NCBI RefSeq assembly: GCF_000970305.1
Contig: NZ_CP009517.1
Span: 620,001-684,000, forward strand
Direction: 5' to 3'
DNA: 64,000 nucleotides
Origin: Methanosarcina barkeri 3
GTDB taxonomy: Archaea > Halobacteriota > Methanosarcinia > Methanosarcinales > Methanosarcinaceae
Under the pieces are notes generated by a model, which was not told where the DNA came from, did not search any database, and worked only from the letters and a program-made list of their open reading frames with translations. The stretch's first letter is position 1, and the number at the start of each line of letters is the position of its first letter. Below are positions 26,365 to 57,420 of the stretch, piece by piece. A program made the translations under genes and the position numbers.

Positions 26365-26447
26365 AATAGTCATTCTTGCTCTCCCTCCGGTTTAATTTCT
26401 AGATTCTAAATTAAGGATTGCCCATCCTCTCTTAATAATGGCTACTT
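26365..26447. repeat. Hairpin element with GGATTGCCCATCC loop, copy 2
   Basis: Arms aatagtcatt (26365-26374) and aatggctactt (26437-26447) pair imperfectly; the loop again contains GGATTGCCCATCCTCTCTTAA, identical over 21 bp to copy 1 except for flanks. Confidence 0.6.
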
Positions 26448-26579: not shown

Positions 26580-27259
26580 ATAAGAAAATGTTTACACTCT
26601 CGTGTCTCGATACAGGACTACTAATTGCCCATCCTCTCTTTAGGAGATTAGAAGTTAAAAAGACATTGGTTAAAGTCTCCGATGAAAGCTGCAATAGGTC
26701 CAACGCTTGCTATAGGTCCGATTGTAAGAGTAAATGTCATTCTAATTTTCCCCCTTATAGATTTTATTCTCAAAGACGACTATAAGTTAGAGTTTTATCT
26801 TAATATAAGAAAATGTTTACACTCTCGTGTCTCGATACAGAATTACTAATTGCCCATCTTCTCTTTCGGAGATTAGAAGTTAAAAAGACATTGGTTAAAG
26901 TCTCCGATGAAAGCTGCAATAGGTCCAACACTTGCTATAGGTCCGATTGTAAGAGTAAATGTCATTCTAATTTTCCCCTTATAGATTTTATTCTCAAAGA
27001 CGACTATAAATTAGAGTTTTTTTATCTTAATATAAGAAAATGTTTACACTCTCGTGTCTCGATACAGGATTACTAATTGCCCATCCTCTCTTTAGGAGAT
27101 TAGAAAGTAAAAACACATTGCATAAAGTCTCCGACGAAAGCTGCAATAGGTCCAACGCTTGCTATAGGTCCAATTGTAAGAATAAGGTCCATTCTAGTTT
27201 TCCCCCCTGTAGATTTTATTCTCAAAGACGACTATACATTAGAAGTTTATCTTAATATT
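26580..27259 (+). repeat. Three tandem 226-bp repeats
   Basis: Units begin at about 26580, 26806 and 27033, each with aagaaaatgtttacactctc at its head, an attgcccatcctctctt core, two ataggtcc boxes and cgactata near the end. Each unit can encode a ~65-residue Cys-containing peptide (MFTLSCLDT...). An indel in unit 2 shifts the frame and substitutions do not respect codons, so coding is doubtful. Confidence 0.85.
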
Positions 27260-27577
27260 AGAATTACTCTTAATATTTATTCGCCTATGAGATATATGCA
27301 TATATGAGCTTAATTTATATAAAGTAGAACGAATATATTCTACTAATTATTAAACCGTAATATAAAATCAGAGCCATTTTAACCCGGAAACTTGAAAATA
27401 CGTCTATATTAAATTTATATTAAAAAAGCACTTAAAATGCTTAAATTTCCAAACTAGAATATAAATACCAGAATATATTTATTGATATATTCTATTAATT
27501 TTTATAATTATATCACTTCACTTTTGTTTTCAATGTTTCGACTTAAATTTTGCCTAATAATATGAGGTATCGTTCTA
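27260..27577. other. AT-rich spacer
   Basis: Contains only small palindromes (for example gtagaac-gaatat-attctac); no gene. Confidence 0.35.
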
Positions 27578-27944: not shown

Positions 27945-28143
27945 TAGTTTATTCAGAAAAAGACAATCTTATTAAAGACAAACATATTATATAGTCAGTT
28001 CTGTTAAAACAGGCATCATTTAAGACATATGTTAAAATGTCCTCTAAGCATGTGATTAATAGAATATATTTACTGGAAACGTTATTGTTATATTTTAATC
28101 AGCTCTATTATATGTATACGCTTTCCTCTGCGTATTCGTTATG

Positions 28144-28209
28144 TAGCCACCAGTTCAAGACAAAGTGAATTCATGGGTTTTGTCAATACTGTCTTGAACT
28201 GGGTGGCTA
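28144..28209. repeat. Hairpin family 'ccagttcaagaca', copy 1
   Basis: tagccaccagttcaagaca (28144-28162) pairs with 28190-28209 along its full length with one bulged G. The loop aaagtgaattcatgggtttt is shared with the copy at 28902. Confidence 0.7.
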
Positions 28210-28687
28210 TTATGATCATTTTTCAATCTCTTACAGTAGCAGGTGTTGCAAATATTTTTGAATTTTTCAAATTAGAAGGGAAATAAACTCTCTAAGGCAT
28301 GAGTTTATCTCTTTATGACTCAACTTTCCAGACATTTTTTTGACTCTTTGAACATCTGTAAAACTCAGTTGAAAATTATGTTGAATTTTTCTGAAAGTGC
28401 TATGAGTAATAATGTAATGTTTATAGTGAAATCTTGCCATTCAATTATTGGAATCATTGTATTTTCCTCCGTTCGTATTCTTCGTATGCTTTTTTCTTCG
28501 TATACTTTTTATATTTTTTCACATTCACTATTTTATAGACAAGAAGCCTACATATATGATTTAAATATATATAGTGAAATTTTCTTTTAATATGGCGATA
28601 ATTAAATTGAAATTTACATGAAAACGCGGTAATACCAATATATTTCCCTCCACTTTTAACGCTGTACTCTTCCTAAGAGATTTTGCA

Positions 28688-28745: not shown

Positions 28746-28901
28746 CAAAGATTTTTTATCTACCAATCTGCTCAGAGAATGTCAAAGTCATTGAATATTA
28801 CTCTGAACTTCTGGCACAGAATAATCACAAAGTACTGAATATCCATCAGTTTCCCCCCGATCTTCAATTGATATTCACTATTCTCTTTGGGTAATTTTTG
28901 A

Positions 28902-28979: not shown

Positions 28980-29534
28980 CCCAAAATATTAACACTATAT
29001 GCTACTTTTAGCAATTAACTTAGTACAATGTTTTTTCGAAAGCCTATCTTAATTTTAAGGCTGATATATCTAAGTTTTAATTGCTAGTAGGCATATTAAA
29101 CATATAGTTTTAGTTTATATAAAGCATATGGAATAAATTTTACTTACAATTAAATAGTCCTGGAAAATCTGGGCGAATTTGATGGGGAAATATGGAATTA
29201 CTTTTTTATTTGATCACTATTGTGAGTATATCTAAAAATGCTGATAAAAAAACTTTTAAATATTTACTTTTCTATTTTTACTAAAAAATAAGGATTATTT
29301 TTAAAAAACAAGTTAAATCTAGCTATTTAATGTAGTTATAGTATATATAAAAGGATAATTTACTGAAATGAGCGAAAATATTATTTTGAATCCAAATCAT
29401 AATACCTCGTATTTTTAATTAAAATGAGTATTTTTTTTCTAGAAGTATAAAAGCTGGATTTATTCAAAGAATTCATATTTAGGAATTTCTTGCTTTCCTG
29501 CACCTTAACCATTCTGAAAAAGATAAATTTTCCA
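28980..29534. other. AT-rich spacer
   Basis: No gene or strong structure recognised. Confidence 0.4.
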
Positions 29535-30182
29535 TTAAATCTTGACATTTCAATTAATTCTCTCGATCACTTCAACTTCTTTTTCTTAACCAGGTTCGCT
29601 CTTGAGTCTTCAAAATCAAATCCGACAAGTTTAATATTTCTTGTCGGGAACTCCTTTGCAATAAAAACGAATCGGTCTCCCTGAATAAGTCCTATAAAAT
29701 TGTAGACCTTATCAGAACACTTTATCCAGGCAGCCATTAAAGTGCTTGAGAAGGGGCACATATTATTTAATTTATAAATATTGTCTCCCTGGATGTGGGT
29801 AAGGATTATTGAACCTTATTTACAAAAAAAATTTTATTTTTCAATACAACTTCAGAATTGTCATCAAAACCGGTACGGATAACCTCAGGCACAATGTCCG
29901 CATCCGTTAGTACAACAGCACTCTATCGGCCGCAATTACCGTAAAATCAGAAAGATTGATTCCGAAAAGTCACTCCTGAAACCTGAGCATTTCTACAGGC
30001 TAGGACAGTCCTTTCGGAAAGACGGACTTTTCGGAAAGACAGACCTTTTGGAAAGACAGCCTCTCGGAAATCACGGCTTTGAATTCAATGTACTGACAAT
30101 AGTTTTTTGGTCAGCATGCTAGAAATGAAAATTTCTGCCTTTTCATCTCCTGCCAGGTCAAGTTCGAAATCTTAAGGAACTC
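29535..30182 (-). pseudogene. Decayed second copy of mptE
   Basis: Read on the minus strand, this stretch follows the intact mptE at 40393-41034 from its codon ~13 onward. Shared blocks include gagatgaaaaggcagaaatt, tctttctgattttacggtaa and the C-terminal KLVGFDFED with VKKKKLK. The copy has frameshifts and a deletion of the segment between the Asp-rich centre and the KVYNF motif (~45 residues). A Trp codon near the end has become TGA. Extra short repeats of 'cggaaagac' are inserted near 30000-30060. Confidence 0.8.
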
Positions 30183-30999
30183 ATTCGGAAATTAATTTCC
30201 TGATAGTAGATTTCCTGATGGTAAAATCTACACGGATCAGTTACCTGTCAAGGTTGCATTCCCTAATCGTAGAGTTGAGTTTTGACAAGTATAAAAATAT
30301 GTTTACAGATAGAACATTAGAATTATTATAATCAAGATGACAGGAGGTCAGTAAATAACACTTAATTAGTGTGATATTGAGAACATAGAAGGATAGAAGT
30401 GAACTACCGCTAAAGTAGAGACTTAGCATCTTCCTGAATCATTCTTCCGCCTAATGTCGAAAGGCCATAAGCTACTCCGCGTACCACAGATGAAAAAGTA
30501 AGAATATGATATTCAGCGTTTAAGGAATTCTATAAGGGACTTAAAATTGGATTAAATATCAGTAAACAACGCTTTCAGTCCAGAGTCAACAACGGAGAAA
30601 TCCATCTCATATTTAACACATAGTCTCTCAAAAACAAACAATAAGTCAAGTAAGTCCTTAAAAATGACAGTGAAATATATTCCAGCCTCACCGAAACGAG
30701 GAACAAATAGTTAAACGATATTAGGTGTACTCTAAAAGCAACGTCAACCAAGTACAGGTAAATGACTATTTTTTCAAATTTTTTATAATAAGGATAAATT
30801 GTTCGGCTGTTTTTATTTATTTTCTAGTTATATACATTTATATTCCTAAGTAGAGTAAATTTTGGCTTATTGTTTTAACAATATGGAAGCGCAGTCTAGA
30901 TTACTTTAACAATTAACCATTATATTTGTTACAAGATGTTTACACTTACAGATTTTAAAAAATTAACTGTGCAATATTGAAAATAATGGAAGACCAAAC
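30183..30999. other. AT-rich spacer
   Basis: No supported gene; it ends with the upstream region of the thioredoxin lipoprotein. Confidence 0.4.
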
Positions 31000-40392: not shown

Positions 40393-41034
40393 ATGGATTT
40401 TGCTACCTGGGAACCGATTTACGAACGAATCCTTGAGGATTTCGGGTTCGATCGAGTAGGTGACGAAAAGGCAGCCATTTTCCTTTCCGGCATGCTGACC
40501 CAAGAAAACACTGTCAGTCTGTCTGAACTTAAAGCTATAATTTCCGGAAAGTATGTTCTGGTCTGTGGAAATGCTCCAGGGCTCAGAAGCGACCTTTCGG
40601 AAATTAATCTTTCTGATTTTACGGTAATTGCAGCCGATGGAGCTGCTGCTGTACTAATGGACATGGACATTGTGCCTGAGGTCATCTGTACCGACCTTGA
40701 TGGCAATTCCGAAGCGGATATTGAAAAAGAAATCCTTGCCTGCCAAAAGGGCTCAATAGTCCTTATTCACGCGCATGGGGACAATATCGATAAGCTTGAA
40801 AAATATGTACCTCGCTTTAGACGGTTTATTGCAACTACCCAGGCAAGGCCTTTTGACAAGGTCTATAATTTTGGAGGCTTCAGTGATGGAGACCGATGTT
40901 TTTTTGTAGCCACGGAACTTGGAGCTAAAAAAGTTAAGCTGGCGGGTTTTGATTTTGAAGATAAGGATGTAAACCCGATTAAGAAAAAGAAATTGAAATG
41001 GGCAAAGAAATTAATAGGGATTTACGATTTTTAG
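40393..41034 (+). CDS. mptE: 6-hydroxymethyl-7,8-dihydropterin pyrophosphokinase MptE
   Basis: Archaeal DUF115/COG1634 enzyme that transfers diphosphate from ATP to 6-hydroxymethyl-dihydropterin on the route to tetrahydromethanopterin/sarcinapterin, the C1 carrier of methanogenesis. Motifs: VLVCGNAPGLRSDL, VIAADGAAAVLMD, PEVICTDLDGN (metal-binding acidic residues), IHAHGDN, and NFGGFSDGDRC. It ends at TAG (41032-41034). An amber read-through would add only ~11 residues unlike the family, so a normal stop is assumed. A worn paralogue lies at 29535-30182. Confidence 0.9.
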   Translation: MDFATWEPIYERILEDFGFDRVGDEKAAIFLSGMLTQENTVSLSELKAIISGKYVLVCGNAPGLRSDLSEINLSDFTVIAADGAAAVLMDMDIVPEVICTDLDGNSEADIEKEILACQKGSIVLIHAHGDNIDKLEKYVPRFRRFIATTQARPFDKVYNFGGFSDGDRCFFVATELGAKKVKLAGFDFEDKDVNPIKKKKLKWAKKLIGIYDF

Positions 41035-41462
41035 AACACAAATAGCCCAAATAAAATGAAGCAATTATAATTTATTGCCAAACTATTTCTTTTTTATTTA
41101 CATAATGAATCGAAAAATTTATCCTATTGAAAAGTAGTCGTTTATATGAATATTTTACACAGGAAGAAAAATGCATAAGTAACGTAGTTGAAAAACAAGG
41201 GGAGTTATCAAACTTTTTCAAGAAAATAAACTCTTTTTAAAGCCCTAAATCTAGTTTAGGCTAAATATAAAGCTTATAGAAATTATCAAGGCGATATTTT
41301 TTAGTTAAGTATTCAATTCCAGATTATTGTTCCTAATTAGTTGAGAGCTTCAATAAAATTATAAGTTATACAATAAATGTAAAAGTAAGTTTGTTTTACT
41401 GACAGAAGGTTTGTTTAGTTTTATAAAGATTATTTATATTAAGAAACAGTTATTCTAGGTCT
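41035..41462. other. AT-rich spacer
   Basis: Nothing recognised before the promoter of the Gly-rich gene cluster. Confidence 0.4.
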
Positions 41463-41684
41463 TTTATATAATTTATAATTCTATGTTAAATTGTACTTTC
41501 ACGGCAGGATTGTTTCTATATAATCGGAAATAAGTAACTCCAATAAATTTTAAAAAATCATCGTGAAAGTATTTTGGGAGTGGGTGAGACCTTTAACTAT
41601 AGGTATAATTCTCTAACCTGAAAAACCCACTATATATCATTTGAAAAGTCTAAAATGACATAGCAAAATCCTGGAGGAAATATA
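41463..41684 (+). promoter_or_regulatory. Promoter and structured leader of Gly-rich gene A
   Basis: TATA tttatataa (41463-41471) is followed 31 nt later by the left arm tactttcacg (41494-41503), which pairs perfectly with cgtgaaagta (41562-41571). A second stem joins agtgggt (41579-41585) to acccact (41625-41631). A GGAGG ribosome site ends the leader. The same layout with different bases is seen before genes C and D. Confidence 0.65.
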
Positions 41685-41780
41685 ATGTGGTTTGGTAACT
41701 GTGGCTGGGGTGGCTGCGGCGGCTGGGGCTGGCGTCGTTGGCGCGGTTGCGGCTGGGGCGGCTGCGGTGGCTGGTGGTAA
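41685..41780 (+). CDS. Gly/Trp/Cys-rich 31-aa protein A
   Basis: ATG 41685 to TAA 41778-41780, with a CTGGAGG ribosome site 8 bp upstream. The peptide begins MWFGNCGWGGCGGW and ends GGCGGWW: 13 Gly, 8 Trp, 4 Cys and 3 Arg in 31 residues. No signal peptide. The composition suggests metal binding, a scaffold of stacked aromatics, or a substrate for modification; none of this is demonstrated. The nearly identical start of gene B (MWFGNCGWGGCGGWG) and shared flanks show a recent tandem duplication. The longer frame across A and B from 41692 is an out-of-frame artefact for A. Confidence 0.75.
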   Translation: MWFGNCGWGGCGGWGWRRWRGCGWGGCGGWW

Positions 41781-41844
41781 GAATAACCACCAGACGAGTT
41801 TGTTGAGCTCAAGAACTAATGAATACCTTTTGGAGGTAAATATA

Positions 41845-41946
41845 ATGTGGTTTGGTAACTGTGGCTGGGGTGGCTGCGGCGGCTGGGGTGGCTGCGGCGG
41901 TTGCGGCGGCTGGGGTGGCTGTGGCCTATGGAACTGGTGGTGTTAA
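41845..41946 (+). CDS. Gly/Trp/Cys-rich 33-aa protein B
   Basis: ATG 41845 to TAA 41944-41946 behind TGGAGGTAAATATA, the ribosome site shared by the whole cluster. The peptide has 15 Gly, 7 Trp and 6 Cys; Cys residues alternate with GG and GW steps and the end is WNWWC. It differs from A mainly by loss of the RRWR basic patch and by two more cysteines. It has no leader of its own, so it is probably translated from the gene A mRNA. Confidence 0.75.
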   Translation: MWFGNCGWGGCGGWGGCGGCGGWGGCGLWNWWC

Positions 41947-42007
41947 GAACAACCGCTAGACCAATGGCTGAGCTCAATAAATATTGAATATTGATGAATA
42001 AAAGTGG

Positions 42008-42060
42008 TCATCATTTCAAGACAGGAAGGTCATTTCAGATTAATTGTCTTGAATTGATGG
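42008..42060. repeat. Hairpin family copy behind gene B
   Basis: tcatcatttcaagaca (42008-42023) pairs with tgtcttgaattgatgg (42045-42060), 14 of 16 positions. It keeps the ttcaagaca core of the hairpins at 28144 and 28902 and may end the A-B transcript. Confidence 0.6.
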
Positions 42061-42480
42061 CTATATATTTTATTACCTGTGTAGGTTAGCAATAGTTTCA
42101 TGTGTTTGAAAGCGGTTTTCGATTCAGGCTGATTAAATCAAAAGCTCACTATTTTATAAGAATAGTTTATTTTAGAAATAATACACTTTCCTCTTAATGT
42201 ATACAAGCGAAGAAGTTTAAAAACAGAATGAGTAGTTCTATTTTCTTTTACTAAATACGCCTTTTTTGAGCTTCCAAATTGATTATAACCGGATGATGTA
42301 GTATATCCATACCATCGAGGTTTTATTTACTTATAAATATTAAATTGCAGACTATAAGTCCTGATTTATCTACATATTTAAAAACTCAAATTTTATAAAT
42401 TAAATACAAAACTAAACAGGACTTCTCAATGCTTGATTTCATAGCTTTTTCAATGACTATTTAATGTTAAGAATTTATTA
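42061..42480. other. AT-rich spacer
   Basis: No gene; from about 42410 it begins to resemble the upstream region of gene D. Confidence 0.4.
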
Positions 42481-42490
42481 TTCTATTCTA

Positions 42491-42744
42491 TTTATATAAT
42501 TTATTATTATATTATTGATTGTACTTTCTGGCAATTAAAGTTAAATCTGCCTCTTTTTAAGGGGATATAGATTATAACACGCTTGTCAGGAGTAACAATG
42601 GAGTTGGGAAGTCGATATAAAATTTGATTTGAGAAATATGTACTCTAATCTTTGGATTATATCATTCCCAATATATAAAAATCGTATAAATTAACTAGAA
42701 AAACATACAACAAACAAAAATATAGTAAATTGGAGGTAAATATA
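42491..42744 (+). promoter_or_regulatory. Promoter and structured leader of gene C
   Basis: TATA at 42491-42499 and, 31 nt on, the stem tttctggcaa (42525-42534) with ttgtcaggag (42583-42592), 10 pairs including G-U. A small hairpin (cctcttttt/aagggg) sits inside. A second stem joins ttgggaa (42604-42610) to ttcccaa (42665-42671). The block gagttgggaagtcgatataa and the next ~20 bases are identical in leader D. Confidence 0.7.
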
Positions 42745-42927
42745 ATGGGTGGAGGATACGGATTATTTGGAAGAGGATTTGATGGTTGCGGCTGCGGTTG
42801 CGGCGGCTTCGGCGGCTGGGGCGGCTGGGGCGGCTGGGGCGGCTGTGGTTGTGAGCCTGAGGTTAAATGCATAACAGCAGTTCGTGCCTGCTGTATTAAA
42901 GGCGGCGGCTGGGGCGGCTGGTGTTAA
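42745..42927 (+). CDS. Gly/Cys/Trp-rich 60-aa protein C
   Basis: ATG 42745, with TGGAGG 8 bp upstream; an in-frame ATG at 42730 lies inside that ribosome site and is rejected. Three parts: a short lead (MGGGYGLFGRGFDG), a Gly/Cys/Trp block (CGCGCGGFGGWGGWGGWGG), and a non-repetitive segment CEPEVKCITAVRACCIKG before a closing GWGGWC. The ITAVRAC.IKG segment is conserved in protein D, so selection acts on more than composition. No family recognised. Confidence 0.75.
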   Translation: MGGGYGLFGRGFDGCGCGCGGFGGWGGWGGWGGCGCEPEVKCITAVRACCIKGGGWGGWC

Positions 42928-43027
42928 AGATAGATTAATCAGATATTGATTAAATCACTCTGACCAGTCAAACCACATACTTAATAGAGAAATATAAAAT
43001 GTAAAATAAAATGTAAAACCAATGATA

Positions 43028-43145
43028 GCTCATTCATGCAGCCCTTTGTCGGATATAGAAGCAGGAGAACCCTGATTGTATCAGAGTTTTAAAATGTACT
43101 GAAAGGTCTCTTCTGTAACTAACCGGCACTCTTTAATGAATGAGC
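43028..43145 (+). ncRNA. Structured element downstream of gene C
   Basis: Three nested stems: gctcattca (43028-43036) with tgaatgagc (43137-43145); tgtcgg (43047-43052) with ccggca (43123-43128); gcaggaga (43061-43068) with tcttctgt (43109-43116, two G-U). A small inner hairpin ctgat-tgt-atcag lies between them. The same architecture is behind gene D with compensating changes. It may be a 3'-UTR element or a separate small RNA. Confidence 0.7.
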
Positions 43146-43740
43146 CTATTTATATTTATTAGTTCAGCAATAACTCAGTTTAGAAACAAGCTATAAAAAT
43201 TCGATATAATAGCGAATATTTTTATAGATCTGTTAATATATATGCATTTACTCTTTTTTCCACAGTCACCCTAGTTTTTTCATATTATATAATTGCGAAT
43301 CCTTTACTGGAAATCACTTAACTATTACATTAGCAGTTAATATTTTCTCTTATTAGTTATGTTTTTGGAAAAGCTTTATTTTAAGCGAAAACTAAGTGTT
43401 TAGAACAAATAGTCAATTTTATGAGTAATTTACTTTATAAATAATTCACTTTTATATAAAAATCTTAGAGTACTGAGGTTCAAAAATCGTATAAGTAACT
43501 CTATTTTTGTTTGATAAATTAGCTTATATTAAGCCTCTAAAAAGGCTATAATCACAGGATATAATGTACTTATGCCATAAAAGCTTTATTTTTGCATAAA
43601 TATAAAATTAAAAACCTGAACTCCTGGTTTTATATAAATCAAAGGAATTAAAATTCGTAAATTAAGCTTATAATTTAACGCGGTTTACAGAGCATGATTT
43701 CCCAGCTTTTTCAATGACTATTTAATATTAAGAACATATT
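43146..43740. other. AT-rich spacer
   Basis: No gene or repeat recognised before the conserved upstream region of gene D. Confidence 0.4.
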
Positions 43741-43751
43741 ATTCTATTATG

Positions 43752-43997
43752 CTTATATAATTTACAATTATATTATTAATTGTACTTCCTGATAACAGAA
43801 GTTAAATTGATTTTTCTTCACGCGAAGACAGACCATAATGTGGTTATCAGGGGTAATAAAAGAGTTGGGAAGTCGATATAAAATTTGATTTGAGAAATAT
43901 TACTCGAATCTTGTATTATATCTACTAAAATATATAAAATATTACATAAACTGACTAGAAAAGTAATAAAAATATAGTAAATATGGAGGTAAATACA
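43752..43997 (+). promoter_or_regulatory. Promoter and structured leader of gene D
   Basis: TATA cttatataa (43752-43760) and, 31 nt on, ttcctgataac (43786-43796) paired with gttatcagggg (43843-43853) over 11 bp. An inner hairpin tcttc-acgc-gaaga replaces the cctc/gggg hairpin of leader C. The 39-nt identical block with leader C follows; the second stem of leaders A and C has no clear right arm here. Confidence 0.7.
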
Positions 43998-44213
43998 ATG
44001 GGAGGATTTCCATTCTTTAAAAAGTTCGATAATTGTGGCTGCGGCTGCGGCTGCGGCGGTGGCTTTGGCGGCTTTTGCGGCTTTGGTGGTTTCTTTGGCG
44101 GCGACGGCTGTGGTTGTGGATGCAAAAAGGAGAAAGAGGTTTGTTGCATAACAGCAGTTCGTGCCTGTAAGATTAAAGGCGACGAATGTGACGGCTGGGG
44201 CGGCTGGTGGTAA
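43998..44213 (+). CDS. Gly/Cys/Phe-rich 71-aa protein D
   Basis: ATG 43998 after ATGGAGGTAAATACA. Layout as in C: lead MGGFPFFKKFDN, then a CGCGCGCGGGFGGFCGFGGFF block with Phe in place of most Trp, an acidic/basic linker (CGCGCKKEKEVC), the shared CITAVRACKIKG segment, and the end CDGWGGWW. Replacement of Trp by Phe at matching steps shows that an aromatic residue, not Trp itself, is conserved in the repeats. Cytosolic by absence of a signal peptide. Function unknown. Confidence 0.75.
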   Translation: MGGFPFFKKFDNCGCGCGCGGGFGGFCGFGGFFGGDGCGCGCKKEKEVCCITAVRACKIKGDECDGWGGWW

Positions 44214-44295
44214 GAGAGATTGATCAGATACTGATCAATCACTCTGAATTATCAACCACAAATTCAATCATTAACTAAAATATAAAGCCAGCCGT

Positions 44296-44424
44296 GGGCT
44301 CATTTGTACAATCCTCCGCCGGTATATAGAAGCAGGAGAATCTTGATTGCACAGAATTTGAAATTTATCGAAAGGTCTCTCCTGCATAACCGGCACTTAT
44401 TAGAAAGGACTAACGAATAAGCCC
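44296..44424 (+). ncRNA. Structured element downstream of gene D
   Basis: Same nested plan as 43028-43145: gggctcatttgt (44296-44307) with acgaataagccc (44413-44424); gccggt (44318-44323) with accggc (44389-44394); gcaggaga (44332-44339) with tctcctgc (44378-44385, all Watson-Crick where copy C has G-U). The loop block cgaaaggtct is conserved. Confidence 0.7.
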
Positions 44425-44512
44425 TATCTTATTTTATGCATCCATGACTGATAATTTTATCGGAAAACTAACCAGATAAGAACTCAAACAACTTAATCTT
44501 GGGCACTTTTTT

Positions 44513-44611
44513 GGACACTTAAATACTGGACACTTAAATACTGGACACTTAAATACTGGACACTTAAATACTGGACACTTAAATTCTGGACACTTAAATT
44601 CTGGACATTTG
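44513..44611 (+). repeat. 15-bp tandem repeat
   Basis: Six full copies of ggacacttaaatact from 44513 and a partial seventh. Confidence 0.9.
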
Positions 44612-45056
44612 TAAATATATTGAATAGAGTTTCAGATACGATACTTTTCTAATCTCGATTTTAAAGGTGCTTCATTATGGGACTTTATCAAACTAAAAAT
44701 ATCTCTATTATGTTTTTGGTTCTTTAACATATTGAAGTTATCACTTATCATCATTTTTTCTCGGTTTAGAGAACTTATAATTTCCTTACTTTCATTTACT
44801 CCATAGTTTACAGTTTCATTTAACTTAAAGTACAGTTATGAAACAGTATCTTGAACATAGATTTTCACATATTTTTGCAAATTTTTTATGGAGAATGTTT
44901 GCTTAAAGTCTTATTCACCAGATATCTTAGTAATCAATTTTATCTTTACTAAGGTTTTTCACCTGGTATAATAATTTATATGAATAACTAACTTTTTATA
45001 GTCTTAAAGGACTATTTTTAATCATTGAGTGATTTTACTAAATTTGAGAGGTATTA
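44612..45056. other. AT-rich spacer
   Basis: No supported gene; it leads into the secreted-protein gene. Confidence 0.4.
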
Positions 45057-45419
45057 GTGGGGGAAATTATTATGGATAGTGTCCAGGTTTTTTACCTGAG
45101 GATAGCTGCAAGCTTCCTGGTTATTTTGTCAACACTTTCAACTTCAGCGGCACTAACTGATGAAGAGGGGACCACTTTTGAAGACGAAAATAATGAAACT
45201 GATTTCGCGTCAACATATAACGAAACTGAAGTAACGGGCCAGGAAATCGGCCTTAACTTCCGGTTTCTCACACCCGTGTTTCAGATGATAGAGGCAGGCA
45301 TAGCAGTAGTGAATTCAATACTCTGTGTGCTGGGGTCAAACCCCGGAAATTCGAGTGAGATAGAAAATTCCCTGATTTCTTTAAACGAAAATATAGAACG
45401 GTTTAATGCAAGCCTCTGA
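45057..45419 (+). CDS. Hypothetical secreted protein
   Basis: 120 residues with an N-terminal hydrophobic segment ending in LSTLSTSAAL, consistent with a signal peptide cut near residue 32. An acidic, Asn-X-Thr-rich stretch follows (potential N-glycosylation), then an amphipathic C-terminal half (FQMIEAGIAVVNSILCVLG). GTG 45057 has GAGAGGT 5 bp upstream; ATG 45072 with GGGGGA upstream is equally possible. No family known. Confidence 0.5.
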   Translation: MGEIIMDSVQVFYLRIAASFLVILSTLSTSAALTDEEGTTFEDENNETDFASTYNETEVTGQEIGLNFRFLTPVFQMIEAGIAVVNSILCVLGSNPGNSSEIENSLISLNENIERFNASL

Positions 45420-49857: not shown

Positions 49858-50661
49858 ATGCACGCTTCAATTCTCCATATCCTCAATACAACAAAAACCC
49901 GTATCCAGGCTCTGGGGCCTCAGACCTGCCGTGAAGGCCTGGATATGGGATTTGAGAAAAGGGACTTTATCTCGGCTGTGGCAGATGCAAAAGCCGACGG
50001 GAAGGTGCCTGTAATTGCAGAGGTCAAGCCCGCGTCACCAGGGAGAGCTTTCAGAGATATTCTGCCTGGAACGGCTGCCGAGCTTGCATGGGAGATGGAA
50101 GAAGCCGGAGCTGTTGCAGTTTCGGTCCTGACCGAGCCTCTGGTATTCAGGGGATCACTTGAAAACCTGGATTCCGTGCGAAATACGGTTTGTTTACCTG
50201 TCCTGAGGAAAGATTTCATTATTGACAGGAAGCAGCTTGATGAAGTTCAAAGTGACCTTGTACTGCTGATCGCAGGTATCCTTGGGGAAGAACTAGGAGT
50301 TTTTGTCGAACTTGCTATTGAAAAGGGATTTGAACCTCTTGTAGAGGTCCATAACAAGCAAGAACTCGATTTAGCTCTTAAAACCGCTGCAAGAGTTATA
50401 GGAATTAATAACCGGGACTTAGAGACGCTTAAAATCGATCTCGGAACCACAGAAGAGCTGGCTCCTATTATCCGGGAGTGCGACCTTGATCACGGAACCA
50501 GGCATCTTATAATAAGCGAAAGCGGGATGAACAGCGTACTGGATGTCAGACGGGTAATTCAGGCAGGTGCTGATGCCGTGCTGATAGGTTCCGCACTTAT
50601 GGAAAGTAATTCGGTTTTTGATAAAACAAAAGAATTTGTCCAGAGCGCTGGTTGGCGTTAA
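49858..50661 (+). CDS. trpC: Indole-3-glycerol phosphate synthase
   Basis: Closes the indole ring from CdRP in tryptophan synthesis. TIM barrel with VPVIAEVKPASPGRA (catalytic Lys), VLTEPLVFRGSLENL, LPVLRKDFIID (second Lys), PLVEVHNKQEL (catalytic Glu), IGINNRDLETL and ISESGM. First gene of the seven-gene trp cluster. The length of 267 aa is normal, with no fusion to trpF as in some bacteria. A 300-bp repeat-filled gap separates it from trpB. Confidence 0.95.
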   Translation: MHASILHILNTTKTRIQALGPQTCREGLDMGFEKRDFISAVADAKADGKVPVIAEVKPASPGRAFRDILPGTAAELAWEMEEAGAVAVSVLTEPLVFRGSLENLDSVRNTVCLPVLRKDFIIDRKQLDEVQSDLVLLIAGILGEELGVFVELAIEKGFEPLVEVHNKQELDLALKTAARVIGINNRDLETLKIDLGTTEELAPIIRECDLDHGTRHLIISESGMNSVLDVRRVIQAGADAVLIGSALMESNSVFDKTKEFVQSAGWR

Positions 50662-50699
50662 TAACTTTTTTTTCAGACTTTTCGGAGCTTTCGGCCTGG

Positions 50700-50860
50700 C
50701 TGGACGGGTTGAAAAATCCACTCAGATTCATTTCAGATCCACTCAAAATCCGTTTAAATCCGTTCAAAATCTGTTCAAAATTTGTTTAAAATCTGTTCAA
50801 AACTCACTCAAAATTTATAAAACTTTGATTAAAATCCTTTAAAAATTTACTTAAAAATCG
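50700..50860 (+). repeat. Degenerate ~12-bp repeats in the trpC-trpB gap
   Basis: Variants of ttcaaaatctgtttaaaatc fill the gap and leave no open frame. Confidence 0.75.
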
Positions 50861-50964
50861 TTCAAAACTAAATTTTGTTTCCATGATAAAATCAAAAACT
50901 GCACTTCCGAATGCGATATCAAATAACGTAATAGGACTACATCAAAAATAAGGGAGTAATAGAA

Positions 50965-52245
50965 TTGACAGAAACTGAAATTTCAGAATTTCCTGCAAAG
51001 AACTCATACTTAAATGAGCTCACAGATTCGAAGAAGAACTTGAAAAACGAGCAGATGGGCCAGATAAAAGGAAAATATGGGAAATATGGGGGACAGTACG
51101 TACCCGAAGTTCTCATGCCGGCCTTAGAAGAGCTGGAAGAGGGATACGAGCGGTATAAGAACGACCCTGAATTCCTTGCCGAGCTTGACCATTACCTGCA
51201 GGATTTTGCAGGCAGGAAAACGCCTCTTTATTTTGCCAGGAACCTGAGCAAAAAGTACGGGTCAAAAATTTACCTCAAACGGGAAGACCTTGTGCACGGA
51301 GGGGCACACAAGTTAAATAACGCTATCGGACAGGCCCTGCTTGCAAAATACATGGGAAAAACCAGGCTGATTGCCGAAACCGGTGCAGGACAGCACGGAA
51401 CTGCAACTGCTATGGCAGGAGCAAACCTTGGACTTGAAACTATCGTGTACATGGGTGCTAAAGATGTCAAGCGTCAGCAAATGAATGCCTATCGCATGGA
51501 ACTCATGGGCACTAAAGTAGTACCTGTGGAAACCGGATCAAGAACCCTTAAAGATGCCATTAACGAGGCTTTCAGGGACTGGGTCACAAACGTAGGAAAC
51601 ACACATTACCTCATGGGCTCGGTTGTAGGGCCTCATCCCTATCCTGTAATAGTAAGGGATTTCCAGAGTGTTATAGGGCGTGAAGTAAAGGGGCAAATTC
51701 TGCAAAAAGAAGGGCGTATGCCTGACTCCATTATTGCCTGTGCAGGTGGCGGAAGCAATGCAATGGGAATTTTCTATCCCTTTATAGAAGATAAAGAAGT
51801 CAAATTGATTGCTGTAGAAGCCGGAGGAAAATCACTGAAATGCACGGAAAAAGCCGCTCTTCATTCAGCCTCCCTCTGTGCAGGAGAAGAAGGTATCCTG
51901 CACGGTGCAAGAACAAAAGTACTGCAGGATAAAAACGGACAGATCCTTGAATCCGAATCCGTTTCCGCTGGGCTTGACTACTCAGGGGTTGGACCTGAAC
52001 TGGCTTACCTGTCCGAGAGCGGCCGGGTTACAGCCCGGTATGCGACTGATGACGAAGCCGTTGAAGCTTTTCACGAATTGAGCAGGCTTGAAGGAATAAT
52101 TCCTGCACTGGAATCTTCCCATGCCCTTGCCTACCTGAAAAAATCCTCGGAAGCCGGGGAACTTGGAGAGGTAGTGGTTGTAAATCTGTCTGGAAGAGGC
52201 GATAAGGATCTGGAAACCGTCCTTAGCCTGAGAGGAGGGATCTGA
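50965..52245 (+). CDS. trpB: Tryptophan synthase beta chain
   Basis: PLP enzyme that joins indole and serine. The signature [15 protein letters not shown] contains the PLP-binding Lys; [12 protein letters not shown], the phosphate-binding GGGSNAMG loop and HGARTK are also present (TrpB1 type). It pairs with TrpA, encoded 1 bp downstream. The TTG start at 50965, with GGGAG upstream, gives ~30 extra residues before the usual beginning [14 protein letters not shown] start at ATG 51055 would remove the extension. Confidence 0.96.
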
Positions 52246-52246
52246 G

Positions 52247-53038
52247 ATGGAGAGACAAAAAATCTCCGAAAAATTCTCCGAACTCAGGGAGAGAAAAGAA
52301 GGAGCCCTGATCTGTTACGTAATGGCAGGAGATCCGTCTGCAAAAAAAACCGAGGAAATTGTAAAAGCTCTGGTAAACGGAGGTGCAGATATTATAGAAC
52401 TCGGTTTTCCTTTTTCGGACCCTGTAGCGGATGGCCCGACAATCCAGGTGGCAGGCCAGAGGGCACTTTCCGCAGGCATGGATACACAGCGCTATTTTGA
52501 GCTTATTAAAACCCTGGATGTTGGGATTCCACTTGTTTGCATGACCTATTATAACCCTGTATTCAGGTACGGAGTGGAAAAATTTGTAGAAAAAGCTGCA
52601 GATGCCGGAATAAGCGGACTGATAGTACCCGATATCCCTGTAGAAGAAGCGGCTGACCTGAAAAGTAGCTGCGAAAAGCACGGGCTTGACCTGATTTTCC
52701 TAATTGCACCCACAACAACCGAGGGAAGGGTCCGAAAGATCCTGGAGAGAGGTTCTGGTTTCCTTTACCTTGTCTCAAGGCTTGGGGTCACAGGAGCCAG
52801 GGAAGATGTCTCGTCTTCTACCAGAGAGCTACTTTCCAGAGTAGAAACCGGGCTTCCTAAGGCTGTGGGATTCGGGATTTCAACAGGAAAACAGGCTGCA
52901 GAAGTTAGAGAAGCAGGAGCGGATGCTGTCATAGTCGGTTCGGCTTTTGTTAAGATTATAGAGGAAGGAAAAGACGTAAACGAAAGGCTTGAAGCCCTTG
53001 CAAGTGAACTAAAATCCGGAATCAGAAGAGCCAGTTGA
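52247..53038 (+). CDS. trpA: Tryptophan synthase alpha chain
   Basis: Cleaves indole-3-glycerol phosphate to indole, which tunnels to TrpB. The catalytic Glu lies in ADIIELGFPFSDPVADGPTIQ, the second acid (Asp) in IVPDIPVEEA; the phosphate-binding GFGISTG and VIVGSAFV loops are complete. GGAGGGA at the trpB end is the ribosome site, and the one-base gap implies tight translational coupling with trpB. Confidence 0.96.
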   Translation: MERQKISEKFSELRERKEGALICYVMAGDPSAKKTEEIVKALVNGGADIIELGFPFSDPVADGPTIQVAGQRALSAGMDTQRYFELIKTLDVGIPLVCMTYYNPVFRYGVEKFVEKAADAGISGLIVPDIPVEEAADLKSSCEKHGLDLIFLIAPTTTEGRVRKILERGSGFLYLVSRLGVTGAREDVSSSTRELLSRVETGLPKAVGFGISTGKQAAEVREAGADAVIVGSAFVKIIEEGKDVNERLEALASELKSGIRRAS

Positions 53039-53049
53039 AGGGAAATAAT

Positions 53050-53150
53050 CCGGAATACAAAGAACATCAACAGTTGGAAAATATAGAATGTCAGTTGGAA
53101 AATAAAGAAAATCAACAGTTGGAAAATAAAGAATGTTAACAATTCTAATA
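53050..53150 (+). repeat. Short repeats in the trpA-trpD gap
   Basis: Three or four variants of aacagttggaaaataaagaa; no coding capacity. Confidence 0.7.
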
Positions 53151-53206
53151 ATTGTATAATTATCTGAAAGGAATAAATCAGGAATTAAAAGGAGGAGGGA
53201 GGAGAA

Positions 53207-54307
53207 ATGCAGAGATACATTCAAAAGCTGGAAGAAGGGCAGGATCTGAGCCCCGAAGAAGCCGAAGCTGCAGTAGGCAAAATTCTGAGTACAGCACAGG
53301 ACGAAGAAATCGGGAAATTTCTGCTGGCTCTGAGGGCAAAAGGTGAAAAGCCCGAAGAAATTGTGGGTTTTGTAAGGGGGATGAAAAAAGCCGGAAACAC
53401 GATCCGGCCCAAAACACCTTTCAGGCTTGTGGATACTTGCGGGACAGGAGGAGATGGCCTAAATACAATTAATATCTCGACCGCAGCTGCCATTGTTACT
53501 GCTGCAGCAGGCGTTCCTGTAGCCAAGCATGGAAACCGGGCTGCAACTTCAATGTCAGGGAGTTCGGATGTACTTGAGGCGCTTGGAATTAAAATTGACC
53601 TGGAGCCTGAAGCTGTCAGGCAAACAATCGAAGAGATAGGAATAGGGTTCATGTTTGCTCCGGTTTTTCACCCGGCTATGAAGAGGGTTGCAGGGGTAAG
53701 GAAAAAGCTCGGGGTCCGCACGGTTTTCAATATTCTTGGGCCTCTGACAAATCCGGCAGGTGCTAAGGGGCAGGTAATAGGGGTCTTTGATAAAAGGCTC
53801 TGTGAACCAATTGCCTGTGCTCTTGCGGAACTAGGGACCGAGCATGCTCTTGTTGTGCACGGAGACGGAATGGATGAAATCACAAATACGGGTGAAACCT
53901 ATGTTGCAGAGTTAAAAGACGGAAGTGTTTCAACTTATACGCTGAATCCGGAAGATCTTGGTATGCTGCAGGCAAATCCCGAGGATATAAAGGGTGGTAC
54001 TCCAAAAGAAAATGCAAAAGACCTGCTGTGCATATTTAAGGGTCAGAAAGGGCCAAAAAGAGATATTGTAGTTCTGAATGCAGCTGCAGCACTGTATGTT
54101 GGCGGTATAGTAGGTTCTATCAGGCAAGCAATTCCTATTGCCGAGGATGCCATAGACAGTGGAAAAGTCATGGTTAAATTCAATCAATTCAGGACTTTTA
54201 CTTCAGGGTTTTACAGACAGAAAAGTAAGAGAAATCTTTCGGGAAAAAGAACTTCGATGCGCTCCGGAACGTCTATATTAAGCCCGACCTCGGGAGAGAG
54301 GGCATGA
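53207..54307 (+). CDS. trpD: Anthranilate phosphoribosyltransferase
   Basis: Transfers phosphoribose from PRPP to anthranilate. GTGGDGLNTINIST (PRPP loop), KHGNRAATSMSGSSDVLEALG and the long FNILGPLTNPAGA match the family. An AGGAGGGAGGAG ribosome site precedes ATG 53207. The C-terminal ~35 residues (KSKRNLSGKRTSMRSG..) are basic and unlike the usual helix end, so a late frameshift or lineage-specific tail is possible. The stop overlaps the trpF start by 4 bp (ATGA). Confidence 0.94.
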   Translation: MQRYIQKLEEGQDLSPEEAEAAVGKILSTAQDEEIGKFLLALRAKGEKPEEIVGFVRGMKKAGNTIRPKTPFRLVDTCGTGGDGLNTINISTAAAIVTAAAGVPVAKHGNRAATSMSGSSDVLEALGIKIDLEPEAVRQTIEEIGIGFMFAPVFHPAMKRVAGVRKKLGVRTVFNILGPLTNPAGAKGQVIGVFDKRLCEPIACALAELGTEHALVVHGDGMDEITNTGETYVAELKDGSVSTYTLNPEDLGMLQANPEDIKGGTPKENAKDLLCIFKGQKGPKRDIVVLNAAAALYVGGIVGSIRQAIPIAEDAIDSGKVMVKFNQFRTFTSGFYRQKSKRNLSGKRTSMRSGTSILSPTSGERA

Positions 54308-55020
54308 CAGCGAAAGCGAAAACAAGAACGAAAATCTGCGGAATTCGCAGCCCTGAAGAAATCGAACTCGCAGCTTTTTACGGAGCCGATGCAGTTGGAT
54401 TTATTACGGAAGTTCCTGTTGAAAGCCCAAGAAAACTAGATTCCGATACTGCTGCCTACCTTGTATCCAGAGTCCCTGAAACTCTGAGTTCCGTACTGGT
54501 AATCATGCCTGAAAACGCGAATACTGCCTTGGAACTGATTGAAAAGATAAAACCCGATATAGTACAGATACATTCAAGGCTTCCTCTTCTTGAACTCGAA
54601 ATAATAAAAGAAAAAACCGGAATCCCTATCATAAAAACTCTGTCCGTACCTGCACAGGGAGAGGCTTCAAGCGAAAGTCCAGAAAACTCGGCTTTTGCCT
54701 CAAGCCTGCTTGAAGAGGTCAACCTTCTGGAAGATGCAGACATTGTAGATTCCATTCTGCTTGATTCGGCAAGGCCCGAAAAGCCAGGTGGCACAGGCTG
54801 TGTGCACGACTGGACTTTGAGCCGGCGAATCTCAGAAGAAACGCAGCTTCCCCTTATTCTTGCAGGTGGGCTCAAGCCTGAAAATGTGCGGGAAGCGGTC
54901 AGAGCTGTTTCTCCTTATGCTGTGGACACGGCATCCGGGGTTGAGACCTGCGGGAAAAAAGATGCCGTAAAAATCAAAAGTTTTATTGAAGAAGTGAGGT
55001 GTGCTAATGCTTTCCTTTGA
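54304..55020 (+). CDS. trpF: Phosphoribosylanthranilate isomerase
   Basis: Amadori isomerisation step of the pathway. The TIM barrel begins TKICGIRSPEEI (catalytic Cys), with DIVQIHS, LLDSARPEKPGGTG (catalytic Asp) and LAGGLKPENV near the end. Residues ~118-140 hold a Ser/Glu-rich insert. It starts inside the trpD stop and ends 14 bp inside trpE, so translation of the three is coupled. Confidence 0.95.
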   Translation: MTAKAKTRTKICGIRSPEEIELAAFYGADAVGFITEVPVESPRKLDSDTAAYLVSRVPETLSSVLVIMPENANTALELIEKIKPDIVQIHSRLPLLELEIIKEKTGIPIIKTLSVPAQGEASSESPENSAFASSLLEEVNLLEDADIVDSILLDSARPEKPGGTGCVHDWTLSRRISEETQLPLILAGGLKPENVREAVRAVSPYAVDTASGVETCGKKDAVKIKSFIEEVRCANAFL

Positions 55021-56650
55021 CCTTGGAAAAGAAGAATTCAAAGAGCTTGCTTCTGGAATGGCCCAGTCAGGTTTTATCCAGCTCCTTGCAAGAATCGATA
55101 ACATTACCTGTTCTCCTCTTGAACTTTACCGCACCCTGCGTGCCTCAGGGACCTCAGGTTATTCGTACCTGCTGGAATCAGTGGAAAAACAGGAAACTAA
55201 GGCAAGATACTCCTTTGTTGGAAATGACCCTGATGCCGTAGTTAGAATAAGTGACAGGAAAATTTCACTTGAGCTCCTTAACCCAGGTGCTTCGACTTTT
55301 TTTGAAGGAGTTCTCTCGAAAATCAAAGGTACCTGCGGGTGTGAAACCGTAGAGGAGGAAAATCCGGAGAAAGAAAACTCAGAAATGGGAAGCGTAAAAT
55401 TCACGGCTCCAATTCCTCAGGGAAAAGATGGTTTCGATGCCCTTCGCCTGGCATTTCCTCCTGAAAACGGGATGGGACTCTTGAATGCTCAGCGTTTTGA
55501 CAGGCAGACCTTCCTGGGCGGAGCTATAGGTTATACAGCTTATGATGCTATTTACGATAGCTGGTTAGGGGTCGAAAAAGGCTTTGAATCCGAAATTCCG
55601 GAACTCCAGTACCTGCTGGTCTCGAAAACTTTTGTTTTCGACCATATGACTGAAGAAATATATATCGTGTTCACTCCTTTTATAAACCCGGGTTCGGATG
55701 CAGGAGAAATCTATGAAACAGCTCTTATGGAAGCCGAAAAGCTCTATACCATACTAAAGGAAGCTCCTCTTTCCGGAGATTCAATAGAATCAGCGATACC
55801 GAGCGGATCAATTTTTTCTGGCTTACCTGTTTCGGACAGTAGCGACGGACAACAGAAATTTGAGGAATCGGTAATTCAGGCGAAAGAACATATTTTTGCA
55901 GGAGATATCTTTCAGGCAGTCCTTTCCAGAAAACGTGAATTTACGCTTGAGCAGTCGCCTTTTGAACTTTATATGCAGCTTCGAGCAATTAATCCAAGTC
56001 CTTACATGTACATCTTTGAATTTGGAGATCTGGCAATTGTCGGGGCAAGCCCTGAAACTCTGCTGACTGTACATAAAAGGACTCTAATCACAAATCCGAT
56101 TGCAGGCACCTGCCCTCGTGGAAAAAACGAAGCCGAGGATGAGGCTTTTGCTGCACATATGCTGCATGATGAGAAAGAAAGGGCTGAGCATGTAATGCTT
56201 GTCGATCTTGGAAGAAACGATGTGAGAATGGTTACGGAAAGCGGTTCGGTAAAGGTTTCCGAGTTCATGAAAGTCCTGAAGTATTCTCATGTCCAGCATA
56301 TAGAAAGTAAGGTTATAGGCACCCTGAGACCTGAATGTGACCAGTTCGATGCTTTCAGGGCAATATTTCCGGCAGGAACTCTCTCGGGAGCTCCGAAAAT
56401 CCGTGCCATGGAAATTATTTCCGAACTTGAAACTTCCCCGCGAGGGATCTACGGTGGAGGAGTCGGATATTATAGCTGGAACGGAGACGCTGATTTTGCA
56501 ATCGTAATTCGGACAATTATTGTACAGGATAAGAAGGCGTCAGTGCAGGCCGGAGCAGGAATCGTAGCTGACTCTGATCCTGGTTACGAATTCAGGGAAA
56601 CCGAACGTAAGATGGGAGCAATGCTTGCAGCAATCGACGGGGAACTTTAA
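55007..56650 (+). CDS. trpE: Anthranilate synthase component I
   Basis: Chorismate-utilising subunit that makes anthranilate with ammonia from TrpG. YSYLLES near residue 50 matches the LLES tryptophan feedback site. The chorismate core is visible in FQAVLSRKREF, ASPETLL, PIAGTCPRGKNEAEDE, VDLGRNDVR, GTLSGAPKIRAMEII and GGGVGYYSWNGD. ATG 55007 is favoured because GAGG lies 7 bp upstream; a GTG two codons earlier is the only other option. 547 aa, usual length apart from an acidic insert near 120. Confidence 0.96.
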   Translation: MLSFDLGKEEFKELASGMAQSGFIQLLARIDNITCSPLELYRTLRASGTSGYSYLLESVEKQETKARYSFVGNDPDAVVRISDRKISLELLNPGASTFFEGVLSKIKGTCGCETVEEENPEKENSEMGSVKFTAPIPQGKDGFDALRLAFPPENGMGLLNAQRFDRQTFLGGAIGYTAYDAIYDSWLGVEKGFESEIPELQYLLVSKTFVFDHMTEEIYIVFTPFINPGSDAGEIYETALMEAEKLYTILKEAPLSGDSIESAIPSGSIFSGLPVSDSSDGQQKFEESVIQAKEHIFAGDIFQAVLSRKREFTLEQSPFELYMQLRAINPSPYMYIFEFGDLAIVGASPETLLTVHKRTLITNPIAGTCPRGKNEAEDEAFAAHMLHDEKERAEHVMLVDLGRNDVRMVTESGSVKVSEFMKVLKYSHVQHIESKVIGTLRPECDQFDAFRAIFPAGTLSGAPKIRAMEIISELETSPRGIYGGGVGYYSWNGDADFAIVIRTIIVQDKKASVQAGAGIVADSDPGYEFRETERKMGAMLAAIDGEL

Positions 56651-56674
56651 AGAGTTTAATTAGGTAATTATGGG

Positions 56675-56821
56675 GTGAAGTTTGTGAAAAGAAGTTCAAA
56701 TATGGACATTTTACATGAAATAAATCCAGTAAACGGATTGTTCACGAAAAAGGAGGTTAAAAAAGAGAAACCAGGAGAAAATGAACTAAAAATGATAAGG
56801 TCAGGAGGTATGTTCAGATGA
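56675..56821 (+). CDS. Possible 48-aa peptide coupled to trpG
   Basis: A GTG-started frame fills the gap between trpE and trpG and its TGA overlaps the trpG ATG (ATGA). It is Lys/Glu-rich, with no Trp codons, so it is not an attenuation-type leader peptide. The ribosome site is weak. It may be a coupling frame only or may be chance. Confidence 0.25.
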   Translation: MKFVKRSSNMDILHEINPVNGLFTKKEVKKEKPGENELKMIRSGGMFR

Positions 56822-57420
56822 AGGTGGTTTTCATAAACAACAAGGATTCCTTTGTATGGAATCTTGTAGACTATATCTCTTATTTTGAAACCGATACCAT
56901 GGTACTTCCCAATACGGTTTCCCTGGAAGAACTTAGAGAGATTAAGCCTGATGCCCTGGTTATTTCTCCAGGTCCAGGGAATCCTTCAGACCAAAGGGAT
57001 ATAGGAAATTGCCTTGAAATAATCAGGGAATTGGGCAGGGAAATTCCCCTTCTTGGAGTCTGCCTGGGGCATCAGGCAATTAATGTGGCCTTCGGCGGAG
57101 TTGTCAGAAGAAGCAAGGTTGGCCCAGTGCATGGAAAAAGTTCAAAGATTCTGCATAAGGAATCTGCACTATTTTCAGCTTTTGAAGGCCCGTTCCAGGC
57201 AGGCCGTTATCATTCGCTTGAGATTGGGGAGCCAGCGCCCGGGATAAAAGTTACTGCCAGGGCTGAAGACGGGAGCATTATGGCAGTGGAACATGTAAAG
57301 TATCCAATCTATGGCCTGCAGTTCCATCCCGAATCCGTGCTTACTCCCGATGGGCTAAAAATAATAGAAAGTTTTCTGGAAATTTCCAAAAATCATAAAA
57401 ATAAGCAAACGGCTGTATAA
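56818..57420 (+). CDS. trpG: Anthranilate synthase component II (glutamine amidotransferase)
   Basis: Supplies ammonia to TrpE. Class I amidotransferase triad: Cys82 in GVCLGHQ, His and Glu in LQFHPESV; the oxyanion strand is VISPGPGNP. 200 aa, unfused. TCAGGAGGT just upstream is a strong ribosome site. Last gene of the trp set, after a 168-bp gap from trpE. Confidence 0.95.
   Translation: MKVVFINNKDSFVWNLVDYISYFETDTMVLPNTVSLEELREIKPDALVISPGPGNPSDQRDIGNCLEIIRELGREIPLLGVCLGHQAINVAFGGVVRRSKVGPVHGKSSKILHKESALFSAFEGPFQAGRYHSLEIGEPAPGIKVTARAEDGSIMAVEHVKYPIYGLQFHPESVLTPDGLKIIESFLEISKNHKNKQTAV

Follow-up and report, generated by a model that had tools for sequence, protein, structure and literature searches.

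The 64,000-nucleotide (nt) stretch of Methanosarcina barkeri 3 DNA analysed here (contig NZ_CP009517.1, positions 620,001 to 684,000; the whole of it is called the window) carries, directly downstream of ileS-mptE, a cluster of four very short open reading frames (ORFs), A to D. An initial annotation had described them as Gly/Cys/Trp-rich microproteins, and all four were found where it had placed them, on the plus strand (Table 1). The single ribosome-site context it had assigned to them holds apart from small variation (GGAGGaaatata in A, GGAGGtaaatata in B and C, GGAGGtaaataca in D), the surroundings are AT-rich as described (flanking GC content 24-27%), and the segment CITAVRAC-IKG is common to C and D. 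The proposed exchange of Trp for Phe in D is seen at most aromatic steps, but the end of D still reads WGGWW. The first 51 nt of A and B are identical, and Cys makes up 12-18% of A, B, C and D, with CxC/CGCGC spacing. The GGW/GGF/CGC repeats are of low complexity: codon units are easily gained or lost, and W, F and Y interchange at the aromatic steps.

The cluster consists of three transcription units, A+B, C and D. The promoter pattern TAAG-N8-ATTCTA-N6-TTATATAA is exact in all three, and the promoters are 87-100% identical between species, as against 72-95% at the fourfold sites of mptE. Transcripts would start about 25 nt past the TATA box if the usual archaeal spacing applies, which is where P1, a long-range helix of the leader, has its 5′ arm. 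The C leader (42431-42639) and the D leader (43692-43900) share 80% identity, and A/B has its own diverged version; P1 of unit C (CTGGCAA/TTGTCAG) and P1 of unit D (CTGATAAC/GTTATCAG) differ by changes that compensate each other. The dedicated leaders and the 3′ elements, both claimed earlier, are present, but the A+B unit ends in an 18-20-bp hairpin (core UUGAAUUGAUGGCUA) unlike the ends of C and D. Just past the conserved block lies a 15-bp tandem repeat, TGGACACTTAAATAC, in about six copies (44512-44610).

Table 1. Features of the cluster and of the second cassette block, in window positions; R1 is the covariance model of promoter and leader, L063 and L085 are other loci, and dN/dS is the ratio of nonsynonymous to synonymous substitution rates
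Feature	Position	Strand	Basis
mptE (6-hydroxymethylpterin diphosphokinase MptE-like), fixed neighbour of the cluster on its upstream side	40393-41034	+	Pfam PF01973, E 5.9e-29; ileS-mptE-cluster synteny in relatives
Promoter, unit 1 (A+B); TATA box ~41463-41471	41426-41489	+	nhmmer, R1, exact pattern; identity 0.91-1.00 in relatives
5′ leader P1, unit 1: apical loop closed by the long-range helix CTTTCACG/CGTGAAAG	41490-41573	+	duplexfold -17.3 vs shuffled mean -10.5; covariation over 80 units
ORF A, 31 aa, MWFGNCGWGGCGGWGWRRWRGCGWGGCGGWW	41685-41780	+	dN/dS 0.11 over 4 genomes
ORF B, 33 aa, duplicate of A	41845-41946	+	dN/dS 0.03 over 3 genomes
3′ hairpin, unit 1, arms ...UUCAAGACA / UGUCUUGAAUUGAUGGC...	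42003-42066	+	15-nt core pattern, genus search
Promoter, unit 2 (C)	42431-42516	+	identity 0.87-0.97; exact pattern at genome 662468
5′ leader P1, unit 2: GTACTTTCTGGCAA / TTGTCAGGAGTAAC	42517-42600	+	pairing energy, covariation
Second leader helix, unit 2: GATATAA...TTATATC enclosing GATTTGAG/CTCTAATC	42612-42665	+	RNAalifold
ORF C, 60 aa, with CITAVRAC	42745-42927	+	dN/dS 0.47 over 7 genomes, alignment
3′ element, unit 2: three nested helices	43027-43146	+	pairing and covariation of the C/D-type element
Promoter, unit 3 (D)	43692-43777	+	identity 0.91-1.00
5′ leader P1, unit 3: CCTGATAAC / GTTATCAGG, compensatory to unit 2	43778-43856	+	pairing energy, covariation
ORF D, 71 aa, with CCITAVRACKIKG	43998-44213	+	dN/dS 0.31 over 8 sequences; no confident fold
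3′ element, unit 3	44296-44424	+	pairing and covariation of the C/D-type element
Decayed second mptE copy, upstream of next cassette	29546-30192 (genome 649546-650192)	-	internal stops
Promoter and P1 leader of another cassette	28999-29159	-	R1 93 bits, E 1.2e-12
Micro-ORF MDIQYFVIILCQKFRVIFNDFDIL	28772-28846	-	iterative search
Micro-ORF MIPIIEWQDFTINITLLLIALSEKFNIIFN	28365-28457	-	homologues in L063, L085
3′ hairpin of the 28999-29159 cassette, 18-20 bp	28139-28216	-	hairpin analysis
Weaker promoter/leader of a further cassette	27215-27359	-	R1 41.5 bits
Micro-ORF MDLILTIGPIASVGPIAAFVGDFMQCVFTF	27100-27192	-	iterative search
Micro-ORF MTFTLTIGPIASVGPIAAFIGDFNQCLFNF, copy 1	26873-26965	-	
Micro-ORF MTFTLTIGPIASVGPIAAFIGDFNQCLFNF, copy 2	26648-26740	-	
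Micro-ORF MTIGSINFIDCTQFSVFIGYFNECIFS	26290-26373	-	

Searched with D, 13 of the 31 Methanosarcina genomes yielded relatives, eight of them clear. The clear D-type clusters lie directly downstream of ileS-mptE with one exception, an extra C/D-type copy on a separate contig; named relatives include M. spelaei MC-15 and the isolates UBA11020, UBA5 and Bin.035. The CITAVRAC part has been lost from the C gene of M. spelaei. Homologues of A-D show an excess of third-position changes and gaps solely in frame, and dN/dS (pooled Nei-Gojobori) ranges from 0.03 to 0.47. The genes have relatives in several Methanosarcina species, with dN/dS between orthologues not near 1 for any of the four, and the suggestion that selection acts on the peptide sequence is borne out by these ratios and by the in-frame indels. 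The same two observations rule out a pure repeat artefact. We conclude, as judged from the alignments, that A-D are real, conserved coding genes under purifying selection.

A DNA search with the start of the promoter and leader matched 30 of the 31 genomes, some weakly, and iterative nhmmer searches over the cassette loci retrieved 81 promoter/leader units; a GGAGG micro-ORF comes after nearly every one. The covariance model R1 matched 29 of the 31, a few weakly, usually with several cassettes in each genome and usually beside mptE; M. barkeri 3 itself has nine matches at E <= 0.1. Elsewhere in the taxonomic family, R1 gave matches, weak ones, only in two genomes of one other genus, where the promoter precedes an ORF of 497-505 aa and not a micro-ORF. 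Behind the leaders we collected 107 distinct peptides, a few of them probably spurious, of 17-81 aa (median 31 aa) with 24.5% Phe/Trp/Tyr and a median net charge of +2; many carry W/R or hydrophobic segments, and some transcripts hold up to four micro-ORFs. The classes into which these peptides fall are unrelated to one another. One is Gly/Cys/Trp (A, B); the C/D type carries CITAVRAC or FNIRGCVAE; MCCG..GGWWRRRWHRRCC occurs as three identical 51-aa ORFs in tandem at locus L069; and there are Tyr-rich peptides of 25-27 aa (MGYFTLYYSNYKVVYERTKLYMRARW is one), hydrophobic ones of 20-41 aa (MTFTLTIGPIASVGPIAAFIGDFNQCLFNF among them) and further types. Many have no Cys or one, and some have no Gly. 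From these genome comparisons, we conclude that the A-D cluster represents three cassettes of what appears to be a Methanosarcina-specific family, in which the RNA and promoter chassis is seen to be conserved and the peptide payload to switch class between species. The earlier emphasis on Gly/Cys/Trp was too narrow, since the chassis is kept while the payload class varies. Small proteins are normally found family by family via protein similarity; because it is the regulatory RNA and promoter that are conserved and the proteins are not, this family is invisible to such a search.

Further members in M. barkeri 3 include a distant Gly/aromatic microprotein, MGGYPFFKNRFDGHGG..., behind the same promoter (locus L129, 2632-3010; genome from ~1976131), with relatives at L134 and L139, and a hydrophobic and Tyr-rich pair (MALPEIIFGFDLGQLFQF..., MIYAIFYSNVSYAY...) behind the promoter motif at L156 (genome ~4189900, minus strand); such pairs recur at L136 and L147. 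The motif also stands ahead of ~110-aa signal-peptide-like proteins and ~500-aa ORFs (one DUF362), and the loci concerned are L130 (2799-3359 and 5548-6030), L138 and L140, and L132, L133, L137, L141 and L146. Its position ahead of larger proteins suggests a wider regulon. Exact copies of the promoter pattern in four viral contigs, three with a weak R1 score (24-29 bits) and the fourth with none, were judged to be chance.

The pairing energy of P1 is far below that of shuffled controls in nearly all units, with a few exceptions. In an alignment of 80 units, double changes occur in 13 of 15 pairs and in 52 cells, compared with 17.8 after shuffling (0 of 500), and shifting one partner by 1-3 columns lowers the paired cells from 83% to 34-47%; this alignment is model-based and fitted to the structure, and its numbers lean toward P1, but the changes are also visible by eye. 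In the C/D-type 3′ element 94.5% of cells are paired, with 12 double-change cells against 5.1 in shuffled data. The core pattern of the 3′ hairpin has 29 matches in the genus, nearly all inside cassettes, and none in a reversed control. Pseudoknots between leader loop and core or between loop and ribosome site were considered and rejected: cognate pairs are no better than non-cognate ones. Rfam has no match up to E 1 in 40900-45100; its sole match elsewhere in the window is PYLIS_2, a pyrrolysine insertion element at 20561-20660 within a dimethylamine methyltransferase gene.

Since promoter, P1 and 3′ hairpin are the common parts and the ORF class varies, the RNA could itself be the functional product, a dual-function or regulatory small RNA (sRNA) in which the ORFs are secondary. 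A precedent comes from M. mazei, where ribosome profiling (Ribo-seq) reportedly gave 314 unannotated translated small ORFs (sORFs), of which half are no longer than 30 aa and 21% lie within what had been reported as sRNAs (PMC11456600). We nevertheless regard this as quite improbable given the low dN/dS, the in-frame indels and the strong conserved ribosome sites in nearly every cassette.

Two more cassettes, with hydrophobic ORFs, lie in the window on the minus strand (29159-28139 and 27359-26290), below a decayed copy of mptE. Decayed copies also precede extra cassettes in other species, and 10 of 13 sit 386-430 nt upstream of a cassette promoter, approximately the spacing at most intact loci. 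Cassettes are evidently duplicated in two ways, in tandem and in blocks that include mptE. The cassettes appear to be the part being kept, because mptE of the extra blocks decays while the micro-ORFs stay open. The main mptE copy has one in-frame TGA in each of two genomes, G030 and G003 (loci L170 and L172).

Around the cluster lie ileS and mptE, an ORF of 120 aa without a match, a protein of 211 aa, an NHL/PKD protein, and the trp biosynthesis operon. This operon (49858-57420; IGPS, PALP, Glycos_transf_3, PRAI, chorismate-binding, GATase) is separated from the Trp-rich ORFs upstream of it by about 5.6 kb, but this neighbourhood is not conserved and the proximity is probably coincidence. We rejected a role as a trp attenuation leader for that operon (49.9-57.4 kb), as two minus-strand genes and more than 5 kb intervene and the downstream neighbourhood is not conserved. 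No export signal or modifying enzyme was found among the window neighbours examined, in agreement with the initial annotation; the flanks of relatives were checked solely for genes of this window.

That annotation had entertained a metal-binding peptide and a modified-peptide precursor, and as general explanations neither is supported. The Cys content and spacing of A-D would suit metallothionein-like, metal-binding microproteins, but many cassettes on the same chassis encode peptides with no Cys or one, no metal gene is adjacent, and we know of no metal site resembling the CITAVRAC core; we consider this very unlikely. The GGC/GCG repeats are reminiscent of azole-forming cores, and A-D might be precursors of ribosomally synthesised and post-translationally modified peptides, for example with heterocyclised GGC repeats as in microcin B17. 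There is, however, no YcaO, dehydrogenase, radical SAM or transporter gene beside the cluster (in the window a radical SAM gene was found once, at a distance of 25 kb and near a dimethylamine methyltransferase), sister peptides have neither Cys nor Gly, and no leader/core split is common to all classes, which together make such precursors extremely improbable. What counts against both proposals is that Cys-free peptides are encoded on the same chassis, with no maturase nearby.

The explanation that we tentatively put forward for the whole, without calling it probable, is one of duplicating cassettes on a shared chassis, whose aromatic-rich peptides would serve as membrane- or surface-active effectors. 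By its sequence, each cassette comprises one conserved promoter, a long-range helix at the predicted 5′ end of the transcript, one to four micro-ORFs with strong GGAGG sites and, in the majority of the cases examined, a stable 3′ hairpin or helix stack. Judging from this anatomy, the helices at both transcript ends would give small, stable mRNAs, and the common promoter would turn on the entire repertoire, with A-D as its Gly/Cys/Trp class, under one condition. Less securely, the peptides, unrelated in sequence, may act at membranes or surfaces, or in assemblies, through a common aromatic-rich, mostly cationic, interface-seeking composition; we suggest action through composition because shortness, aromatic content and, often, positive charge are what unite the classes. 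Such effectors would resemble type I toxins or leaderless bacteriocins, minus the modifying, transport and immunity genes of the latter. Structural self-assembly, type I toxin-like loci and a role at the RNA level are the chief competing readings.

Several observations weigh against this proposal. The grand average of hydropathy of A-D (about -0.5 to +0.2) is not transmembrane-like, A-D carry no export signal and no exporter was found. The ribosome site, with a predicted median unpaired probability of 0.52 (14 of 69 below 0.3), is not strongly sequestered, in contrast to that of the classical type I toxin mRNAs. No antisense promoter conserved across classes was found, the TATA-like motif of the TATATAAA type being present in 2 of 50 non-C/D leaders. 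For some classes the comparison is too small to say anything about selection, as in the FGW pair with a dN/dS of 0.86. Finally, in 7 of 29 genomes no cassette was detected beside mptE, which is intact in these seven, within a flank of ~1.5 kb or less, and because of this absence we take the cluster to be dispensable.

The dispensability of the locus speaks also against a different possibility, that the peptides are self-assembling or structural and that their Gly/aromatic/Cys repeats, similar in composition to keratin-associated proteins, form a material held together by cross-links or aromatic stacking, inside the cell or on its surface. Low-complexity repeats with easy gain and loss of units and W/F/Y exchange would be consistent with such a role, as would the absence of a stable predicted fold for D (AlphaFold with nine relatives: mean predicted local distance difference test score 39, predicted template modelling score 0.17). 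A structural role is unlikely, in our view, as there is no export signal and the sister hydrophobic or Tyr-rich peptides of 20-30 aa lack the Gly/Cys plan.

Database searches place the family apart from those described. For A-D, Pfam and NCBIfam gave nothing up to E 1, metallothionein families included, and PHROGs and PADLOC gave nothing for A, C and D; a C/D profile matched no solved structure among the PDB sequences. As to a virus or plasmid origin, neither a protein comparison with IMG/VR nor distant blastn against phages and plasmids gave a match. The view that no described family fits is thus upheld across Pfam, NCBIfam, PHROGs, PADLOC, Rfam, PDB sequences and the viral and plasmid collections, and the chassis-and-payload architecture likewise fits no family tested. 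The peptide motifs were not found in the main texts of the literature searched, supplementary sORF tables apart; the main text of the M. mazei study, as far as searched, describes neither a Gly/Cys/Trp family nor a shared promoter, leader or 3′ hairpin, and its supplementary list may hold overlaps (PMC11456600).

We regard it as an even call whether the whole is a plug-in platform: at a fixed site beside mptE and at scattered ones, one conserved promoter, one structured-leader class (P1, in most units with a GGGGGUUGAUA-like core after it) and the conserved 3′ hairpins would express unrelated aromatic-rich micropeptides that are rapidly exchanged. The leader would then be a new class of riboregulator, and the peptides would form an archaeal effector system that has not been described before. 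The cassettes are present in most genomes of a genus with genetic tools, and the promoter pattern, covariance model and 3′ hairpin provide a handle for finding about 100 micropeptides. They offer a candidate new class of archaeal RNA and a test case for the origin and turnover of tiny genes on a fixed regulatory chassis. Were the peptides antagonistic or self-toxic, they would constitute a new kind of archaeal conflict system.

Among known systems, type I toxin-antitoxin loci (Hok/Sok, Ldr, Ibs, TisB) share with the cassettes short peptides, mRNAs structured in the leader and at the 3′ end, tandem and decayed copies, and a narrow phylogenetic range, here one genus. The cassettes might even be loci of this kind, in which RNA, as leader structure or as an antisense transcript, would silence a toxic peptide, and the opposite-strand motif TATATAAA does occur at a fixed place in 10 of 20 C/D leaders (shuffled mean 2.5). 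We consider this distinctly unlikely: the motif is broken in the remaining C/D leaders and absent from most other classes, no antisense RNA promoter conserved across classes was found, the ribosome site is predicted to be largely open and its pairing with the loop does not coevolve, and A-D are not transmembrane, solely some sister classes being hydrophobic. Metallothioneins are short and Cys-rich with CxC spacing, as are A-D, but differ in that sister cassettes are without Cys and no profile matches. Gly/Tyr-rich keratin-associated and other Gly/aromatic/Cys low-complexity proteins are alike in composition and repeat style, with no homology detected. Leaderless bacteriocins (aureocin A70/A53, enterocin L50 type) differ by their ABC transporter and immunity genes, which are absent among the window neighbours examined, and the cassettes by their unrelated payload classes and archaeal host; the two are alike in being short, Trp-rich or hydrophobic, often cationic, free of a leader peptide and encoded in tandem. 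The M. mazei sORFs, as reported, come from the same genus and size class, and some lie in former sRNA candidates (PMC11456600).

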